Shown: piece after piece, positions 23,458 to 32,189 of the stretch
Layout of the letters: each line of letters begins with the position of its first letter
Numbering within the stretch: position 1 is the stretch's first letter
Assembly: GCF_907164845.1 (NCBI RefSeq)
Contig: NZ_OU015430.1
Span: 1,106,001-1,170,000 of the forward strand
DNA: 64,000 nucleotides
Reading direction: 5' to 3'
Source of the DNA: Lysobacter luteus
GTDB taxonomy: Bacteria > Pseudomonadota > Gammaproteobacteria > Xanthomonadales > Xanthomonadaceae
The notes under the pieces: model-generated
The model's database searches: none
The model's input: the letters and a program-made list of their open reading frames with translations, nothing else
What the model was told of the DNA's origin: nothing
Made by a program: the position numbers and the translations under genes

Positions 23458-23904
23458 ATGAAGCGTCTCCCCCTGACCCTGCCGCTGTTGCTCGCCTTGA
23501 TGGTGGCGGCGCCGGCGTGGTCCCAGGAAACGGTGATCCAGAGCGAGAACGTGCGGTTCGCCTACGCGCAGGTGCTGCGGGTGACGCCGGTCTACCAGAC
23601 GCTCACCACCACCGGCGTGGAGGAGCAGTGCGACCAGTCGCCCGCGCCCGACAACGACCAGTCGCGGCTGTCGCGCGTGGTGGGAGCGGTCAAGGACGCG
23701 CTCGGCCGGCAGAGCGACGAGCAGCCCGATCCGGATTGCCGCGCGGTACCGGTCGAACGCGAGTTCCGCCGGCCGATCGCGTACGACGTCGACTACGTCT
23801 ACAAGGGCGCGAAGTACCGGTCGCGCCTGCCCGACGATCCGGGCAACCGCCTGCGCATCCGCATCGGGGTCACCCCCGTCGTGTCCGGGTCCCGCAGCCT
23901 GTGA
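23458..23904 (+). CDS. Small exported protein of unknown function (UmoD-like tail)
   Basis: The start at 23458 gives 148 residues with a Sec signal peptide (MKRLPLTLPLLLALMVAAPA, cleavage near AWSQ). The mature part has two or three cysteines and ends with IAYDVDYVYKGAKYRSRLPD, then PGNRLRIRIGVTPV. That tail is like the beta domain of UmoD/17-kDa surface antigens but lacks their glycine-zipper part. An upstream ATG at 23410 would add a charged, less signal-like N terminus. It lies just upstream of the arginine leader region. Function unknown. Confidence 0.75.
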   Translation: MKRLPLTLPLLLALMVAAPAWSQETVIQSENVRFAYAQVLRVTPVYQTLTTTGVEEQCDQSPAPDNDQSRLSRVVGAVKDALGRQSDEQPDPDCRAVPVEREFRRPIAYDVDYVYKGAKYRSRLPDDPGNRLRIRIGVTPVVSGSRSL

Positions 23905-23987
23905 ACCGCCTTTTGCAGCCGCAGCGCGGCGTACCGCGCGACGTACCGGTTGCCGACGGCCGGGCCGCGTGAGAGCATTCGCGCCCG

Positions 23988-24092
23988 ATGACCCACTTCC
24001 GCGCCGACGCCGACATCGTGACTTCCGCCTGGATGGCGGCGGGCATGACCTCGCGCGCGCGCCGACGCCTGCCTTTCCACCAGGCCGGGTAG
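23988..24092 (+). CDS. Putative arginine leader peptide of the arg cluster
   Basis: A small ORF (34 codons from ATG 23988; internal ATGs at 24033 and 24045 give 19 and 15 codons) contains CGC-GCG-CGC-CGA-CGC, so Arg-Ala-Arg-Arg-Arg. The shortest form reads MTSRARRRLPFHQAG. A strong terminator begins 36 bases after its stop, and argF' starts 44 bases after that. A short hairpin (GCCTG 24067-24071 with CAGGC 24081-24085) follows the Arg codons. This is the layout of a translation-controlled attenuator, but no clean antiterminator pairing was found and expression is not shown. Confidence 0.45.
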   Translation: MTHFRADADIVTSAWMAAGMTSRARRRLPFHQAG

Positions 24093-24127
24093 CCGCTCGC
24101 ACGCACGTCATCGTGGCGTGACACACG

Positions 24128-24156
24128 AAAGCCCAGCCTCCGCGCTGGGCTTTTTG
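24128..24156 (+). terminator. Rho-independent terminator between leader ORF and argF' (possible attenuator)
   Basis: AAAGCCCAGC (24128-24137) pairs with GCTGGGCTTT (24144-24153), followed by a T-rich tract through 24161. It lies 225 bases after the nearest upstream protein gene but only 44 bases before argF'. It is therefore better placed to control the arg cluster than to end the upstream gene. Confidence 0.88.
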
Positions 24157-24199
24157 TTTTTCCGCCCGGCGTCCCCTCTTTCCCGACGGACCCCCCGCG

Positions 24200-25216
24200 A
24201 TGACTCCGACCCCCCGGCACTTCCTCAACACCCAGGACTGGTCGCGCCCCGACCTCGACGCGCTGCTGGCGCAGGCGGCCGCGTTCAAGCGCGACAAGCT
24301 GGGCGACCAGTTGCGCGGCAGAGCGATCGCGCTGGTGTTCTTCAACCCCTCGATGCGCACCCGCACCAGCTTCGAACTTGGCGCATTCCAGCTGGGCGGG
24401 CACGCGGTGGTGCTGCAGCCGGGCAAGGACGCGTGGCCGATCGAATTCGACCTCGGGACCGTCATGGACGGGGACGCAGAGGAGCACGTCGCCGAGGTGG
24501 CGCAGGTCCTGGGCCGCTACGCCGACCTGATCGGCGTGCGCGCGTTCCCCAAGTTCGTCGACTGGTCGGTCGACCGCGAGGACCGGGTGCTCAAGGCGTT
24601 CGCGAAGTACTCGCCGGTGCCGGTGATCAACATGGAGACGATCACCCACCCCTGCCAGGAGCTCGCCCACGTGCTGGCGCTGCAGGAGCACTTCGGCACC
24701 AGCGACCTGCGCGGCAGGAAGTTCGTGCTGACCTGGACCTACCACCCCAAGCCGCTCAACACCGCGGTCGCCAATTCCGCGCTGACCATCGCCACCCGCA
24801 TGGGCATGGACGTGACCCTGCTGTGCCCGACCCCGGAGTACGTGCTCGACGAGCGCTACATGGACTGGGCCCGCACCAACGTCGCCGAGAGCGGTGGCTC
24901 GCTGGCGGTGACCCACGACATCGACAGCGCCTACGCCGGCGCCGACGTGGTGTACGCCAAGAGCTGGGGCGCGTTGCCGTACTTCGGCAACTGGGCGCCG
25001 GAGAAGCCCATCCGCGACCAGTACCGGCACTTCATCGTCGACGAGCGGAAGATGGCACTGACGAACGACGGCGTCTTCAGCCACTGCCTGCCACTGCGGC
25101 GGAACATCAAGGCCACCGACGCGGTGATGGACTCGCCGCGCTGCATCGCCATCAACGAGGCCGGGAACCGGCTGCACGTGCAGAAGGCCATCATGGCCAC
25201 GCTCGCCGGCCACTGA
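24200..25216 (+). CDS. argF': N-acetylornithine carbamoyltransferase
   Basis: This 338-residue enzyme of the xanthomonad arginine pathway carbamoylates N-acetylornithine to N-acetylcitrulline. It has the carbamoyl-phosphate motif FFNPSMRTRTSFE (47-59), HPCQELAH and HCLPLRRNIK. E94 in DAEEH and K304 in RRNIK align with residues known in the Xanthomonas campestris enzyme (E92, which selects the acetylated substrate, and K302, a carboxylated lysine). This separates it from ordinary ornithine transcarbamylase. It is the first gene of the arg cluster, behind the leader and terminator. Confidence 0.97.
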   Translation: MTPTPRHFLNTQDWSRPDLDALLAQAAAFKRDKLGDQLRGRAIALVFFNPSMRTRTSFELGAFQLGGHAVVLQPGKDAWPIEFDLGTVMDGDAEEHVAEVAQVLGRYADLIGVRAFPKFVDWSVDREDRVLKAFAKYSPVPVINMETITHPCQELAHVLALQEHFGTSDLRGRKFVLTWTYHPKPLNTAVANSALTIATRMGMDVTLLCPTPEYVLDERYMDWARTNVAESGGSLAVTHDIDSAYAGADVVYAKSWGALPYFGNWAPEKPIRDQYRHFIVDERKMALTNDGVFSHCLPLRRNIKATDAVMDSPRCIAINEAGNRLHVQKAIMATLAGH

Positions 25217-25255: not shown

Positions 25256-26449
25256 ATGAGCAAAGACATCGTCCTCGCCTTTTCCGGCGGCCTCGACACC
25301 AGCTTCTGCGTGCCCTACCTGCAGGAGCGCGGCTGGGCCGTGCATACCGTGTTCGCCGACACCGGCGGCGTCGACGCCGAGGAACGCGCCTTCATCGAGC
25401 AGCGCGCCGCCGAGCTGGGTGTGGCCAGCCACGTCACCGTCGACGGCGGCCCGGCGATCTGGTCGGGCTTCGTCAAGCCGTTCGTGTGGGCAGGCGAGGG
25501 CTACCAGGGCCAGTACCCGTTGCTGGTGTCGGACCGCTATCTGATCGTCGAGGCCGCGTTGAAGCGCGCGGGCGAGCTTGGAACCCGCGCGATTGCCCAC
25601 GGCTGCACCGGCATGGGCAACGACCAGGTCCGCTTCGACCTGGCGGTCAAGGCGCTGGGCGACTACGAGATCGTGGCGCCCATCCGCGAGATCCAGAAGG
25701 AGCACACCGAGGTACGCGCCTACGAGCAGGCCTACCTGGAGGAGCGCGGCTTCGGCGTGCGCGCCAAGCAGAAGGCCTACACGATCAACGAGAACCTGCT
25801 CGGGCTGACCATGTCCGGCGGCGAAATCGATCGCTGGCAGGCGCCCGGAGAGGGCGCCGTGGGCTGGTGCAAGCCGCGCGCCGAGTGGCCCGCCCAGCCG
25901 TTGCAGGTGCGGATCGGTTTCGAGAACGGTGAGGCGGTGACGCTGGATGGCGCGAAGGTGGCCGGCCATGAGTTGCTGGCGAAGCTCAACGCGTTGTTCG
26001 CCCGGTACGGCGTCGGCCGTGGGCTGTACACCGGCGACACCACGATCGGCCTGAAGGGACGGATCATCTTCGAGGCCCCGGGCCTGGCCGCGCTGCTGGT
26101 CGCGCACCGCGCGCTGGAAGAGGCGGTGCTGAGCAAGCAGCAGAACCGCTTCAAGCCGGACGTCGCGCGCAAGTGGGTGGAGCTGGTCTACGAGGGCTTC
26201 TTCCACGACCCCCTGAAAACCGACCTGGAGGCGTTCCTCGCATCCAGCCAGTCGACCGTCAACGGCGAGGTGGTGCTTGAGACGCACGGCGGCGTGGTCA
26301 ACGCGGTCGCGGTCGAGTCGCCGCACATCCTCAATGCCAAGGGCGCGACCTACGCGCAGGCCGCCGACTGGGGCGTGGCCGAGGCCGAGGGCTTCATCAA
26401 GCTGTTCGGGATGAGCAGCACCCTGTGGGCGGAGGTCAACCGGTCGTAG
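25256..26449 (+). CDS. argG: Argininosuccinate synthase
   Basis: This 397-residue ATP-dependent ligase joins citrulline and aspartate. The N-type ATP pyrophosphatase P-loop is [10 protein letters not shown] near residues 8-17, and the citrulline/aspartate-binding segment [14 protein letters not shown] is intact. It lies 39 bases after argF'. In this pathway citrulline is supplied by the acetylcitrulline deacetylase encoded next. A palindromic repeat separates argG from argE', which could split expression or stabilise the upstream part of the transcript. Confidence 0.97.
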
Positions 26450-26476
26450 CCCGGACCGCGACAACGCCGGCGGAGC

Positions 26477-26550
26477 TGTAGGAGCGGCATGAGTCGCGAC
26501 CCGCTGGACGCCGCAACGATGTAACGGTCGCGACTCACGTCGCTCCTACA
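26477..26550. repeat. GTAG-type palindromic repeat, copy 1
   Basis: The 74-base inverted repeat has 25-base arms that differ at two positions, beginning TGTAGGAGCG and ending CGCTCCTACA. It lies between argG and argE'. The same arms recur at 27671, 30709, 30795 and 53925. It resembles REP/BIME elements mobilised by RAYT (TnpA-REP) enzymes, which recognise GTAG-headed hairpins. Confidence 0.88.
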
Positions 26551-26578
26551 AGTGCCCGGATTTATCTTCAGGATTGCC

Positions 26579-27685
26579 ATGCTCCACGACATCCTCCAAC
26601 ACCTCGAAGCGCTGGTTTCCTTCGACACCCGCAACCCGCCGCGTCGGATCGGCACCGGCGGGATGTTCGACTACCTGCGCGCGCAGCTGCCCGGCTTCCG
26701 GATCGACGTCACCGACCACGGCGATGGCGCGGTATCGATGCTGGCGGTGCGCGGCAACCCGCGCCGGCTGTTCAACGTGCACCTGGACACGGTGCCGTCG
26801 TCGCCGGCCTGGAGCGGTGACCCGCATGTGTTGCGGGTCACCGCGGACCGCGCGATCGGGCTTGGCGCCTGCGACATCAAGGGGGCGGCGGCCGGGTTGC
26901 TGGCTGCGGCGGCACGCAGCACCGGGGATGCCGCCTTCCTCTTCAGCACCGACGAGGAGGCCAACGATGCCCGCTGCATCGCCGGCTTCCTGTCGGCCCA
27001 CCATGGCTTCAGCGAAGCGATCGTGGCCGAGCCGACCCGCTGCGAGGCGGTGCTGGCCCACCGCGGCATCAGCTCGGTGCTGATGCATTTCCGGGGGCAA
27101 GCCGGGCACGCGTCCGGCGCCGACGCGATGCACGCCAGCGCGTTGCACCACGCGATGCGCTGGGGCAGCCGTGCGCTGGACCTGGTCGAGGCCGAGTCGC
27201 ACCAGCGCTTTGGCGGATTGACCGGACTGCGCTTCAACATCGGCCGGGTCGAAGGCGGGATCAAGGCCAACATGATCGCGCCGGCGGCCGAGGTCCGGTT
27301 CGGGTTCCGGCCGCTGCCGTCGATGTCCATCGATGCGCTGCACGCCCGGTTCGGCACGCTGGTCGAGCCGGGACCGGTGACGCGCTACGAAGAGACCTTC
27401 CGCGGCCCGCCGCTGCCGGCCGGCGACGTCGCCGCCGCCGAGGAACACCGCCTGCAGGCGCGCGACCTGGCGGAGGCGCTGGGCCTGCCGATCGGCAACG
27501 CGGTCGACTTCTGGACCGAGGCGTCGCTGTTCTCGGCGGCCGGCATGACGGCGATGGTCTATGGCCCCGGCGACATCGCCCAGGCCCATACGGCCGACGA
27601 GTGGGTGTCGCTGGAGCAGTTGCAGCGTTATGGCGACTCGGTGGTCCGGATCCTTGGCGCCGGCCTTGACGTAGGAGCGACGTAA
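26579..27685 (+). CDS. argE': N-acetyl-L-citrulline deacetylase (M20 family)
   Basis: This 368-residue M20 metallohydrolase removes acetate from acetylcitrulline, giving citrulline for ArgG. Metal ligands lie in [35 protein letters not shown] and AQAHTADEW. The ATG has an AGGA site and begins MLHDILQHL; an earlier GTG at 26552 adds residues derived from repeat-flanking sequence and is rejected. The last four codons (Val-Gly-Ala-Thr) and the TAA stop lie inside the palindromic repeat at 27671, so the native C terminus has probably been replaced by repeat sequence. Confidence 0.94.
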
Positions 27686-27743
27686 GTCGCGACCCCCTGA
27701 AAGCACGACCTCCATCCGCGTTCGCGACTCACGTCGCTCCTAC
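27671..27743. repeat. GTAG-type palindromic repeat, copy 2 (supplies the argE' stop)
   Basis: This 73-base element runs from GTAGGAGCGACG to CGTCGCTCCTAC. Its left arm encodes the last four codons and the TAA stop of argE', and its right arm ends 25 bases before the argB start codon, so it occupies nearly the whole gap. Confidence 0.88.
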
Positions 27744-27768
27744 CAGTGCAGATACGACGCAATCCCCC

Positions 27769-29142
27769 ATGACCATCCCGCCCACCGTCCACGACATCCA
27801 GACGCGCCAGACCATCGTCCGGCTGCTTTCCAGCATGGCCAGCGCCAAGGAGATCAGCCAGTACCTCAAGCGCTTCTCGCAGCTCGACGCGGCGCGCTTC
27901 GCGGTCGTCAAGGTCGGCGGCGCGGTACTGCGCGACGACCTCGACGCGCTGACCTCGTCGCTGGCGTTCCTGCAGGACGTCGGCCTGACGCCCATCGTGA
28001 TCCACGGTGCCGGCCCGCAACTGGACGCGGAACTCGCGGCCGCGGGCATCGAGAAGCGCACCGTCGAGGGCCTGCGGGTGACCTCGCCGGAGGCGCTGGC
28101 CATCGTGCGCCGGGTGTTCCACGCGCAGAACCTGCGGCTGGTGGAGGCGCTGCAGCGCAACGAGGCGCGCGCGACGTCGATCGTCTCGGGCGTGTTCGAG
28201 GCCGATTACCTGGATCACGACACCTACGGCCTGGTCGGCGAAGTCCGCCGGGTCGACCTTGCCCCGATCCAGGCCAGCCTGCAGGCCGGTTCCATCCCGG
28301 TCATCGCCAGCCTGGGCGAAACCACCGGCGGGCAGATCCTCAACATCAACGCCGACTTCGCCGCCAACGAGCTGGTGCAGGTGCTGCAGCCGTACAAGAT
28401 CGTGTTCCTGACCGGCACCGGTGGCCTGCTCGACGAAGCGTGCCAGGTGATCGATTCGATCAACCTGTCGACCGAGTACGCCGACCTGCTGGCGCAGCCG
28501 TGGGTGCATGGCGGCATGCGGGTCAAGATCGAGCAGATCAAGCAGTTGCTGGACCGGTTGCCGCTTTCGTCCTCGGTGTCGATCACGCGGCCCGCCGAGT
28601 TGGCCAAGGAGCTCTTCACCCACAAGGGTTCGGGCACGCTGGTACGCAAGGGTGAGCGTGTGCTGCAGGCAGGGTCATGGGACGAGCTGGACCTGCCCCG
28701 GCTGCGCACGTTGATCGAGTCCGCCTTCGGGCGCCGGCTGGCGCCGGACTACTTCGAGCGCACTCGGCTGCGCCGCGCCTACGTCAGCGAGAACTACCGT
28801 GCCGCGGTGGTGCTGGTCGATGGCGGTGACGAGGCCGGCGGCGAGACCTACCTGGACAAGTTCGCGGTGCTCGACGACGCCCAGGGCGAGGGTCTTGGCC
28901 GCGCGGTCTGGCAGGTAATGCGCGAGCAGAACCCACGGGTGTTCTGGCGCTCGCGGCACGGCAACCCGGTCAACGCGTTCTACTACGCGGAGTCGGACGG
29001 ACATATCAGGCAGGAGGCATGGAACGTGTTCTGGTACGGGATCACCGAGTTCGAGAAGCTGGCCGGTTGCGTGGCGCACTGCCGCGAGCGCGTGCCAACT
29101 TTGCTGGGCCCTTTGCGCGGAGACGCGGCGGTTGAGGCATGA
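27769..29142 (+). CDS. argB: Bifunctional N-acetylglutamate kinase/synthase
   Basis: This 457-residue fusion combines an amino acid kinase domain (about 1-290: [36 protein letters not shown]) with a C-terminal DUF619-type GNAT domain (about 300-440: [35 protein letters not shown]). Xanthomonads use this NAGS-K fusion for the first two steps, making N-acetylglutamate and phosphorylating it; arginine inhibits it in studied species. No clear ribosome site precedes the ATG, and the palindromic repeat lies immediately upstream, which may affect translation. It overlaps the next gene by four bases (ATGA). Confidence 0.96.
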
Positions 29143-29744
29143 GTGACTGGACCCAGGCACCGGTACTCGCCGGTCGAAACGCCAGGCTTGAACCGCTGGC
29201 GGTGGCCCACGTTGACGGCCTGCGTGCGGCGACCGACGAGGTACTGGCGGGCTGCTGGTACACCAGCGTGCCGCCACCGGACCAGGTCGAGGCGTACGTC
29301 GATTCCGCCCTGCGGATGCAGGCGCAGGGCAGGGCGCTCGCGTTCGTCGTGCGGGATGCGGACGGTGAAGTGGCCGGCGCCACGCGACTGTACGACCTCG
29401 ACCCGGCGACCCCGAGGGTGCAGATCGGATACACCTGGTATGCACGGCGGGTGCAGCGCACCGGCGTCAACACCGAGGTCAAGCGGTTCTTGCTGGCACA
29501 TGCCTTCGACACCCTTGGCTGCGTGGCGGTGGGCTTCCAGACCAGCTGGTTCAACCGCGCCTCGCGCAATGCGATCGAGCGCCTCGGCGCCAAGCGCGAC
29601 GGCGTGATCCGCAACCACCAGCGCCATGCCGACGGCAGCCTGCGCGACACCGTCACGTATTCGATCATCGACAGCGAGTGGCCCGCCGTGCGTCGCAACC
29701 TCGACGATCTGCTGGCGCGCCACGCGGTGGAGGTCGGGCAATGA
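29139..29744 (+). CDS. GNAT acetyltransferase, RimJ/RimL type, inside the arg operon
   Basis: This 201-residue GNAT protein has the RimJ/RimL-like pattern [30 protein letters not shown] (acetyl-CoA pyrophosphate loop region) and [20 protein letters not shown]. It overlaps argB by ATGA and argC by ATGA, so it is translationally coupled to both, which implies a role linked to arginine synthesis or its N-acetylated intermediates. The substrate is unknown; protein N-terminal or antibiotic acetylation are other possibilities for the family. The length is normal. Confidence 0.88.
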
Positions 29745-30694
29745 CCACCACCCCGGTTGCCATCGGCATCGTTGGCGCGCGCGGCCATGTGGGCGCCGAG
29801 CTCATCCGGCTGGTCGCCGCCCATCCCGGGTTCGAGCTGGCCTTCGTATCCTCGCGTGCGCTCGACGGCCAGCCGGTCGCCGCGCACAACCCCGGCTACG
29901 CCGGCGACCTGCATTACAGCTCGCCCGGTTACGACGAGTTGCCCGGACTGGGAGCGCACGCCGTGGTGCTGGCGCTGCCCAACGGCAAGGCGGCGCGTTG
30001 CGTGGAGGCATTCGACCTCGCCGGTTCGGATGCGCTGCTGATCGACCTGTCGGCCGACTACCGCTTCGACCCGCGCTGGTATTACGGCCTGCCGGAGCTG
30101 GCGCGCGACGGCTACGTCGGCCAGCGGCGGATCAGCAACCCCGGCTGTTACGCCACGGCGATGCAACTGGCGGTCACTCCGATGCTGGATGCGGTTGAAG
30201 GCCCGGTGCAGTGCTTCGGCGTGTCCGGGCATTCGGGCGCCGGCACCACCCCGTCCGACCGCAATGATCCCGCCAAGCTGCGCGACAACCTGATGCCGTA
30301 TGCACTCACCGGGCACGTGCACGAGCGCGAGGTGTCCAGCCGACTTGGCCACCCGGTGGAGTTCATGCCGCACGTGGCACCCCATTTCCGCGGGATCACC
30401 ATCACCGCCAACCTGCACCTGGCGCGTTCGTTCACGCGCGAGGAAGTGCTTGCCCGCTACCGGGGCCGCTATTCCGGCGAGCCGCTGGTGCAGGTGCAGG
30501 ACGAAGCGCCGTGGGTCAGCGCGATCGCCGGCCGCCACCACGTCGAGATCGGTGGTTTCACGCTGTCGGACGATGGACGGCGGCTCGTCGTGGTCGCCAC
30601 CGAGGACAACCTGCTCAAGGGCGCTGCGACCCAGGCGCTGCAGAACCTCAACCTCGCCTTCGGCCTGCCCGAGCTCACCGGCATCCCGCATTGA
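29741..30694 (+). CDS. argC: N-acetyl-gamma-glutamyl-phosphate reductase
   Basis: This 317-residue NADPH-dependent dehydrogenase acts after the kinase step. The nucleotide motif is [17 protein letters not shown], the catalytic cysteine sits in [12 protein letters not shown], and the second catalytic segment is [16 protein letters not shown]. The ATG overlaps the GNAT stop (ATGA), which fixes the start and rejects a longer reading. It is followed by tandem palindromic repeats before argH. Confidence 0.96.
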
Positions 30695-30708
30695 CCCTCC
30701 GAGCACTC

Positions 30709-30780
30709 TGTAGGAGCGGCTTCAGCCGCGATCGGGTGCACCGTTGCCCGACTTCCATCGCGACTTACGTCGCTCCTACA
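30709..30780. repeat. GTAG-type palindromic repeat, copy 3
   Basis: This 72-base element runs from TGTAGGAGCGGCTTCAGCCG to ACGTCGCTCCTACA between argC and argH. Its left arm is a diverged variant (GGCTTCAGCC core) and its right arm is the standard form. Confidence 0.87.
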
Positions 30781-30794
30781 CAAGCACGACCCCC

Positions 30795-30819
30795 TGTAGG
30801 AGCGACGTAAGTCGCGACC
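30795..30819. repeat. GTAG-type repeat, single arm (copy 3b)
   Basis: One arm (TGTAGGAGCGACGTAAGTCG and five more bases) lies 14 bases after copy 3. It is a near-perfect inverted match to the right arm of copy 3 (23 of 24 bases), so two alternative hairpins can form in the argC-argH spacer. Confidence 0.85.
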
Positions 30820-30899
30820 ACGCAGCCCAACCACCATGCGAGGCACCGGGTTATCCCCACCTTCGCCCCCACGTTCCCCGACCACCACCCGAGACCAAC

Positions 30900-32189
30900 A
30901 TGACCGACCTGCTCTGGCAAAAGCCCGGCGTCCGCGTCGACGAGCGCATCCAGCAGTTCTGTGCCGGTGACGACGTCATCCTGGACCGCGAGTTCTTCGC
31001 GTTCGACATCCAGGCAAGCGCCGCGCACGCCGAAGGCCTGCAGCGCATCGGCATCCTGTCGGCGGACGAACTCGAGGCGATCCAGCGTGAACTGGGCGCA
31101 TTGGCCGCCGATTTCGATGCCGGCGACTTCGTGCTCGACGCGCGTTACGAGGACGGCCACTCGGCGATCGAGGCGCGCCTGGTGGAGCGACTTGGCGACA
31201 CCGGGCGGCGCATCCACACCGGGCGCAGCCGAAACGACCAGGTGCTGGTCGCAACGCGCCTCTGGCTGAAGGATCGGTTGGCCACGCTGCACGCACTCTG
31301 CCGCGAGGTGGCCGGTGTCGCACTTGAGCGCGCCGCGGCCGAGCGCGACGTGCCGTTGCCCGGCTACACGCACCTGCAGCGCGCCGTGGCCTCGTCGCTC
31401 GGCATGTGGTGGGCGGCGTGGGCCGAAGGATTCATCGACAACGCGACCCGCGCGCGCGACACCCTGGCGTGGGTGGACGCCAACCCGCTCGGCAGCGCGG
31501 CCGGCTATGGCGTCAACCTGCCGCTGGACCGCGACCACACCACCGCCGCGCTCGGGTTCGGGCGCATGCAGGTGGCCGCGACGTACGCACAGCTGTCGCG
31601 CGGCAAGTTCGAGCTGGCCGCGACCGAGGCCCTGGCCAGCGCCGTGCTCGACCTCCGCCGGCTGGCGTGGGACCTCAGCCTGTTCACCAGCGCCGAGTTC
31701 GGCTTCGTCGCGTTGCCGGCCCAGTACACCACCGGCAGCTCGATCATGCCGAACAAGCGCAACCCCGACGTGATCGAGCTGATGCGCGCCAGCTATGCCA
31801 GCGTCGCTGCGGGCAGGGCGGAGATCGAACACCTGCTGTCGCTGCCGTCGGGTTACCACCGCGACCTGCAGTTCTCCAAGGGCGCGATCTTCCACGCGTT
31901 CGGACGCGGGCTGGGCGCGCTGTCGCTGCTTCCGGACCTGTTGCGCAACCTGGAGTGGAACACCGACGCGATGCGCGCCGCGCTCGATCCGTCGATGTAC
32001 GCGACCGACCTTGCCGTCGACCTCGCGCGCGACGGGTTGCCATTCCGCGACGCCTATCGGCAGGCCGCCGATCCGGCGCGGTGGACGGCCGGCGACCCGG
32101 CTGCGAGCCTCGCGGCACGCGTGTCTCCGGGGGCCGCGGGGGACCTGCGGCTGGAGATCCTCCGCGGTCGACTGGACGGGCTTGCCTGA
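30900..32189 (+). CDS. argH: Argininosuccinate lyase
   Basis: This 429-residue fumarase/aspartase-superfamily enzyme splits argininosuccinate to arginine and fumarate, the last step. The signature [12 protein letters not shown], the SRNDQV segment and [11 protein letters not shown] are present. The ATG begins [10 protein letters not shown]; a longer in-frame reading would translate the upstream repeat and is rejected. The 205-base argC-argH spacer holds repeat copies 3 and 3b. It is slightly shorter than the E. coli enzyme but complete. Confidence 0.96.

Follow-up and report, generated by a model that had tools for sequence, protein, structure and literature searches.

A candidate arginine-sensing attenuator leader before argF' in Lysobacter luteus and related bacteria

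The leader ORF, the terminator and the argF' operon

The window analysed here is a 64,000-nt stretch of Lysobacter luteus DNA (contig NZ_OU015430.1, positions 1,106,001 to 1,170,000 of the forward strand), and its subject is a candidate attenuator in front of an arginine biosynthesis cluster that begins with argF'. A sequence-only reading of this DNA had pointed to an open reading frame (ORF) with Arg-Ala-Arg-Arg-Arg codons, followed by a terminator and then by argF'; these were confirmed at 23988-24092, 24127-24161 and 24200, respectively. The distances that it had given were correct to within a few bases: 34 nt separate the ORF end from the terminator stem, 38 nt separate the T-run from the argF' ATG (24200), and the preceding ORF ends at 23904. 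The features of the locus are as follows.

23950..23978, + strand: predicted promoter, TTGCCG 23950-23955, 17-nt spacer, GAGCAT 23973-23978; predicted transcription start about 23985-23987
23988..24092, + strand: leader ORF of 34 codons, stop TAG 24090-24092; predicted to be nearly leaderless (ORF list, comparison, and 5' end by analogy with Xoo5, Rfam RF02242)
24054..24068, + strand: control codons Arg-Ala-Arg-Arg-Arg, CGC GCG CGC CGA CGC, with CGA at 24063-24065
24067..24085, + strand: segment 1:2 hairpin, GCCUG 24067-24071 with CAGGC 24081-24085; predicted anti-antiterminator (nascent-RNA fold, competition model)
24082..24090, + strand: segment 2, AGGCCGGGU, overlapping the ORF end and the first base of the stop codon
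24131..24139, + strand: segment 3, GCCCAGCCU, with segment 2 (antiterminator; C24086 and A24135 mismatched) or segment 4 (terminator) as predicted partner
24127..24161, + strand: intrinsic terminator, segments 3:4 plus T-rich tail (terminator scan; fold -18.6 kcal/mol)
24200..25216, + strand: argF' (N-acetylornithine carbamoyltransferase), first cluster gene (NF003384, 626.5 bits, cut-off 288)
25256..32189, + strand: argG, argE, argB, a GNAT-like ORF, argC and argH (NCBIfam search)

The program-made ORF list gives the 34-aa translation of 23988-24092 as MTHFRADADIVTSAWMAAGMTSRARRRLPFHQAG. The terminator stem (24127-24154, T-rich tail to 24161) gave two overlapping scan hits, against 0.2 per shuffle. 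As in attenuators of the trp/his type, the leader ORF carries clustered codons of the pathway product, and an intrinsic terminator stands between it and the first structural gene. Very probably, the leader ORF and terminator work together as a ribosome-mediated transcription attenuator in which the charging of tRNA-Arg(ICG) is sensed by the trp/his mechanism, arginine being the amino acid concerned. When charged tRNA-Arg(ICG) is scarce, the ribosome would stall on the leader Arg codons, CGA above all, and cover segment 1; segment 2 would then be free to pair with segment 3 as the antiterminator, and RNA polymerase would continue into argF'GEBCH. The 1:2 hairpin would act as the anti-antiterminator.

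Conservation and codon choice of the leader

The comparison took in 128 leaders (106 distinct sequences over the stretches compared): 80 loci chosen by argF' similarity alone (the best 80 of 580 candidates), 47 Rfam Xoo5 loci and the window. T-S-R-A-R-R was in frame in 128/128, including all 80 picked solely by argF', and in 113 the stop codon ended 45 nt downstream of where the Thr codon begins. Unconserved Arg codons among relatives had been named in advance as grounds for giving up the attenuator idea; the comparison found them conserved in every leader. A 21-nt core pattern occurred in 38 of 40 genomes of the window's own family (37 of 39 genera; family codes f1-f12 are analysis labels, and this family is f1), and the reversed control pattern gave no match. 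It was single in 37 family genomes and double in G471, and absent from G475 (72% complete) and G497; the second copy in G471 has no terminator and lies in apparently coding DNA, and was taken as chance. Across f1 and f12 the wider motif A-x-x-A-x-G-M-T-S-R-A-R-R-P (codons -7 to +6 around Thr; window 24027-24068) is stricter than codon sensing needs, and judging from this motif the leader peptide itself may have a role in the two families.

Beyond the Xoo5 matches, 40 more upstream regions were read, one of which (L151, 71 bases) was too short. An Arg leader was present in 37 of the 39 usable ones: the single f1 region, 12/12 in f12, 6/6 in f3, 3/3 in f2 and 15/17 in f4-f10. All those from f1, f12, f3 and f2 carry T-S-R-A-R-R, and the f4-f10 peptides differ (for example NIRRPRRTK, LLRRRSRRP, NPRRRRV and VARRLRRSK). 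The leader was thus present in 85 of the 87 upstream regions read, from 175 argF' genomes (36/36 f1, 24/24 f12, 7/7 f3, 3/3 f2, 15/17 f4-f10). Among 26 distant loci, at least 4 Arg in 8 codons were found in 17 (Ala 4, Ser 3, other residues 0-1), and 200 rounds of shuffling gave a mean of 1.8 and a maximum of 6. An argF' match at 1e-60 was obtained in 175 of the 200 order genomes. The f11 matches (E about 1e-63 to 1e-73, 7 among the matches listed) are weak, and the f11 sequence is therefore likely an ordinary carbamoyltransferase. At 1e-100 only 3 of 274 class genomes passed, and each of them belongs to the family of the window itself, so the leader is not traceable beyond the order.

The codons CGU, CGC and CGA are decoded by tRNA-Arg with anticodon ACG (I34). 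In the core of the 128 leaders CGU or CGC fills the first two Arg positions, CGA occupies the third in 128/128, and CGG accounts for 0 of 384. For the 80 argF'-selected loci plus the window, leader-core Arg codons comprise 82 CGC, 81 CGA and 80 CGU, the last being CGA in 81/81; argF' of the 80 loci (n=1361) uses 1055 CGC, 123 CGU, 123 CGG, 46 AGG and 14 CGA. Fifteen distant leaders follow the same choice with 30 CGA, 24 CGC and 13 CGU, and CGG, AGA and AGG are found in 0 of 67, while argF' of these loci has 17 CGA and 86 CGG, AGA or AGG among 254 Arg codons. CGA is accordingly enriched in the distant leaders relative to argF' (Fisher odds ratio 11, p 2e-12, with codons treated as independent, which they are not). 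In f8, AGA makes up 9 of 19 argF' Arg codons, yet both leaders use CGC and CGA only. The window's genome has a single tRNA-Arg each for anticodons ACG, CCG, TCT and CCT; in the tRNA survey 44 of 45 matches lay in typed loci, and the remaining one scored 22.6 bits, below the cut-off. A his-attenuator assay reports the same reading of CGU, CGC and CGA by the ACG (I34) tRNA-Arg, with CGA decoded worst of the three (PMC4046918). Theory holds that attenuators prefer codons read with the greatest sensitivity to starvation, and the fixed CGA and the missing CGG, AGA and AGG amount to a natural test of this.

Such a synonymous-codon bias points to decoding, rather than the peptide, as the sensor, and would be expected if tRNA charging is what the leader senses. 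This bears on a nascent-peptide arrest, in which M-T-S-R-A-R-R-P itself would stall the ribosome, possibly upon binding arginine or a precursor, and work the same RNA switch. The residues T-S-R-A-R-R are fixed in the 128 leaders beyond what codon counting needs, while third positions vary (Thr ACC 93, ACG 29, ACT 6; Ala GCG 84, GCC 42, GCT 2), as an arrest peptide would have it. Against this, the 15 f4-f10 leaders keep only the Arg clusters in differing peptide surroundings, and a peptide sensor has no need of the strong codon bias; we regard arrest by the peptide as improbable.

Antiterminator pairing and the modelled switch

The 5' arm of the terminator is mostly ACCCAGC or ACCCGGC, and ACCUGGC in f8; the end of the leader ORF is mostly GCUGGGU or GCCGGGU, and GCCAGGU in L171. 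In 165 of 165 leaders (128 + 37) the best duplex partner of the arm lay at the stop codon, loosely taken as any overlap with positions -18 to +12 around it. For the tree described below, segment 2 was picked as the most complementary stretch around the stop codon, a choice that favours pairing; shuffles and swaps repeated the best-partner choice. Among 56 unlike leaders, to which the set was thinned for the pairing and switch tests, pairing beat dinucleotide shuffles (p<=0.05) in 43, with a mean z of -2.6. Own pairs averaged -16.2 kcal/mol; with arms swapped between families the mean was -14.2 and the lowest -15.2, none of 300 rounds being as low, and with arms from another sequence class the mean was -13.9 and the lowest -14.6. 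In the 91 rows of an argF' protein tree, the fourth core base of segment 3 and its partner were A-U in 56, G-C in 23, G-U in 5 and non-standard in 7. For the relatives as a set, the terminator 5' arm has an alternative partner in a segment that would be masked by a ribosome on the stop codon; for the window alone this is weak. The sequence-only reading had found no clean antiterminator, which is fair for the window copy with its C-A mismatch (p 0.124), and the pairing of ORF end with terminator 5' arm emerged when relatives were compared.

To model the competition between these pairings, we calculated how likely segment 3 is to have an upstream partner before segment 4 has been transcribed. 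Model 1 left the RNA upstream of the ribosome free to pair and gave almost no switching in the window, and it was replaced by model 2, which omits upstream RNA. Over the 56 leaders, model 2 gave a mean of 0.69 for ribosome-free RNA, 0.72 when a ribosome was stalled at the final Arg codon and 0.25 when it stood at the stop codon; the antiterminator was likelier in the stalled than in the stop state in 55 of 56, and the means were steady for footprints of 9-14 nt. For the window the corresponding values were 0.14, 0.60 and 0.05, which would be a three-state switch. The models support the switch logic and do not settle the window's own efficiency.

Several observations weigh against the attenuator. 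The window's own 2:3 pairing contains the one C-A mismatch and reaches p 0.124 against shuffles, and 7 of 91 rows, including that of the window, are mismatched (A opposite C, or A opposite A in L165). Of 5 independent tree contrasts between segments 2 and 3, 3.2 on average agreed and 0.0 disagreed (median p 0.25), too few for significance. Under model 1 the means were 0.43 without a ribosome, 0.53 stalled and 0.11 at the stop, with 47 of 56 leaders higher when stalled than at the stop, and values of 0.00, 0.02 and 0.00 for the window. In model 2 the 1:2 hairpin would make a difference in the window (0.14 without a ribosome, 0.60 stalled) but has little weight in most relatives (means 0.69 and 0.72; only 2 of 56 under 0.3 without a ribosome), and the contrast between stalled and stop states follows partly from masking segment 2. 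On the comparative side, L164 (f5) and L169 (f9) show no leader or strong terminator at that place before argF'; the 87 regions read leave 88 of the 175 argF' regions outside the count; and the reverse strand also yields Arg clusters in 8 of the 26 distant loci, so part of the Arg signal may stem from CG-rich composition. These points notwithstanding, the attenuator put forward in the sequence-only reading is supported by the Arg codons kept in 128/128, by the antiterminator, by the codon bias and by the lack of an ArgR match in the sampled family; arginine-dependent read-through itself we infer.

Xoo5, the predicted promoter and possible arginine control without ArgR

The Xoo5 search of 200 order genomes gave 49 matches in 48 genomes at E<=0.001, 28 of them over the cut-off (stricter filters can lose weak matches). 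Forty-seven of the 49 lay directly before argF'; the other two, L113 and L124, were weak and away from argF' and were dropped. At E<=0.001, 34 of 36 f1 genomes match. The window itself scores 22.5 bits with an E of 0.17 over model positions 44-78 alone, under the gathering cut-off of 50 bits; by place and ORF its leader is the Xoo5 counterpart, below the Rfam cut-off. In the source study sRNA-Xoo5 sits between PXO_00354 and PXO_00353, and PXO_00353 is listed in Table 4 as N-acetylornithine carbamoyltransferase (PMC3039613). The 124-nt Rfam model stops 10 nt short of the terminator arm and so omits segments 3 and 4. Judged by these comparisons, Xoo5 is this leader element. The RNA cloned as sRNA-Xoo5 would then be the terminated or trimmed leader. 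Northern blots in Xanthomonas oryzae gave two transcripts early in growth and the short one alone later, at about 130 and about 100 nt (PMC3039613). The terminated leader expected for L082 (Xoo5 144 bits) measures 159 nt, above both bands, which counts against the attenuator, and trimming or processing must be assumed. The available parts of that study do not term Xoo5 an attenuator (PMC3039613), and we suggest that RF02242 would be better moved from sRNA gene to leader and extended over the terminator.

Could the element instead be the Xoo5 gene, an sRNA acting in trans on other mRNAs, with its position before argF' incidental? Rfam does type RF02242 as Gene; sRNA, Northern bands were obtained in X. 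oryzae (PMC3039613), and Sinorhizobium meliloti rnTrpL has a reported trans role besides attenuation (PMC7298713). Yet 47 of 49 matches lie directly before argF', the RNA contains a conserved ORF whose end pairs with the terminator arm, and a trans role leaves the codon choice unexplained; this explanation is very unlikely.

The leader would start close to its start codon. A TTG...N16-18...NANNNT pair lay upstream of the ORF in 115/115 family leaders by a pattern search that required TTG plus two fixed bases, so that the hexamers are partly built in and the spacing is not. In f1 the start codon follows the second hexamer by 7-10 nt in 110 of 112 measurable leaders; of the 24 f12 leaders one lacks the pair, and 20 of the other 23 have a gap of 24-31 nt. 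In some f12 leaders, such as L111 and L117, a GGAA stretch precedes a start codon placed 24-25 nt past the promoter-like hexamer, so a nearly leaderless start seems characteristic of f1. The Rfam Xoo5 model starts CU-AUG, that is, 2 nt upstream of the leader AUG, and the sRNA-Xoo5 5' end was set by RACE (rapid amplification of cDNA ends), with an RNA length of 124 in Table 2 (PMC3039613). Because the model length equals that of this RNA, we take the X. oryzae 5' end to lie 2 nt before the leader AUG, and by analogy we infer that the f1 leader ORF would be translated from a nearly leaderless transcript. A consensus promoter scan of window 23850-24260 found nothing at threshold, which speaks against the predicted promoter. 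The same scan, with a preceding gene in the same direction that ends at 23904, would suit an ordinary terminator of that gene with a chance ORF and argF' read from another promoter, a notion that is scarcely credible given an ORF conserved across the order, a promoter-like pair at fixed distance before it in the family, and just 38 nt from T-run to argF' in the window.

The attenuator resembles known systems in parts. Like the enterobacterial trp, his, leu and thr attenuators, it has a product-codon-rich leader ORF, a stop at segment 2 and alternative antiterminator and terminator. Codon choice in those systems is also tied, in theory, to the tRNA isoacceptor (PMC1183508). Here arginine would be sensed, the control codons are limited to those of one isoacceptor with CGA last, and the element precedes argF' in an order whose sampled genomes matched ArgR in f11 only. 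The leader ORF at the RNA 5' end (rnTrpL starts with ATG), the terminated leader seen as an sRNA and an operon without transcription repression all recur in S. meliloti trpL/rnTrpL (PMC7298713), so leaderless leader ORFs and attenuator-derived sRNAs have precedent; that system senses tryptophan, belongs to another bacterial class and has reported trans functions, none being reported for the present element. In Salmonella, two consecutive Arg codons of the orf34 leader of speF sense arginine through ribosome pausing (PMC6386406), but orf34 controls putrescine synthesis via Rho, translation and RNase G, in place of an intrinsic terminator before an arginine-making operon. A leader peptide or attenuation was proposed before Pseudomonas carA, a gene of the arginine and pyrimidine pathways, with attenuation ascribed there to pyrimidines and arginine control to transcription (PMC4997734). 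The mechanism class is already known; within the Creative Commons-licensed PMC literature, subscription papers aside, no arginine-operon ribosome attenuator described for the order was found, nor was Xoo5 read as one. Likewise none is described in the available parts of PMC3039613, PMC2965389, PMC8632094, PMC5343134, PMC6956189 and PMC6337395.

Arginine synthesis usually serves to illustrate control by a DNA-binding repressor, ArgR. A search for ArgR (PF01316) found no match in the window's genome (G000) or in any sampled f1 genome; matches occurred in 8 of 151 order genomes, all of f11, and in 9 of 14 control genomes. The attenuator would make up for the arginine repressor not found in the sampled family genomes. 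Most of the order appears to use attenuation instead of ArgR, which would explain arginine control without ArgR in these bacteria, crop pathogens included. A wider picture, tentative and perhaps slightly harder to believe than to doubt, is an order-wide arginine operon run without repressor by an RNA gauge of the charging of one isoacceptor, tRNA-Arg(ICG), with the poorly decoded CGA as the fixed slow step, one family leaderless, and Xoo5 as the cut-off product, possibly with a trans job. A Xoo1 sRNA mutant had lower ArgG and ArgF' proteins (PMC3039613, Table 4), a possible second control of the operon.

Elsewhere in the window's genome, the region upstream of carA showed no Arg cluster, and that upstream of argD had an overlapping ORF with Arg runs and no terminator between. 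An Rfam rnk_pseudo match at 24060-24162 (28.7 bits, cut-off 55), alike mainly in the terminator, was rejected. For the GNAT-like ORF at 29139-29744, between argB and argC, NCBIfam gave nothing beyond a weak match, at 44.8 bits, to an isoleucine--tRNA ligase exception model. Preceding the leader, a small protein gene at 23460-23904 on the + strand has no NCBIfam match, and the tail of a similar gene lies upstream of several relatives' leaders.
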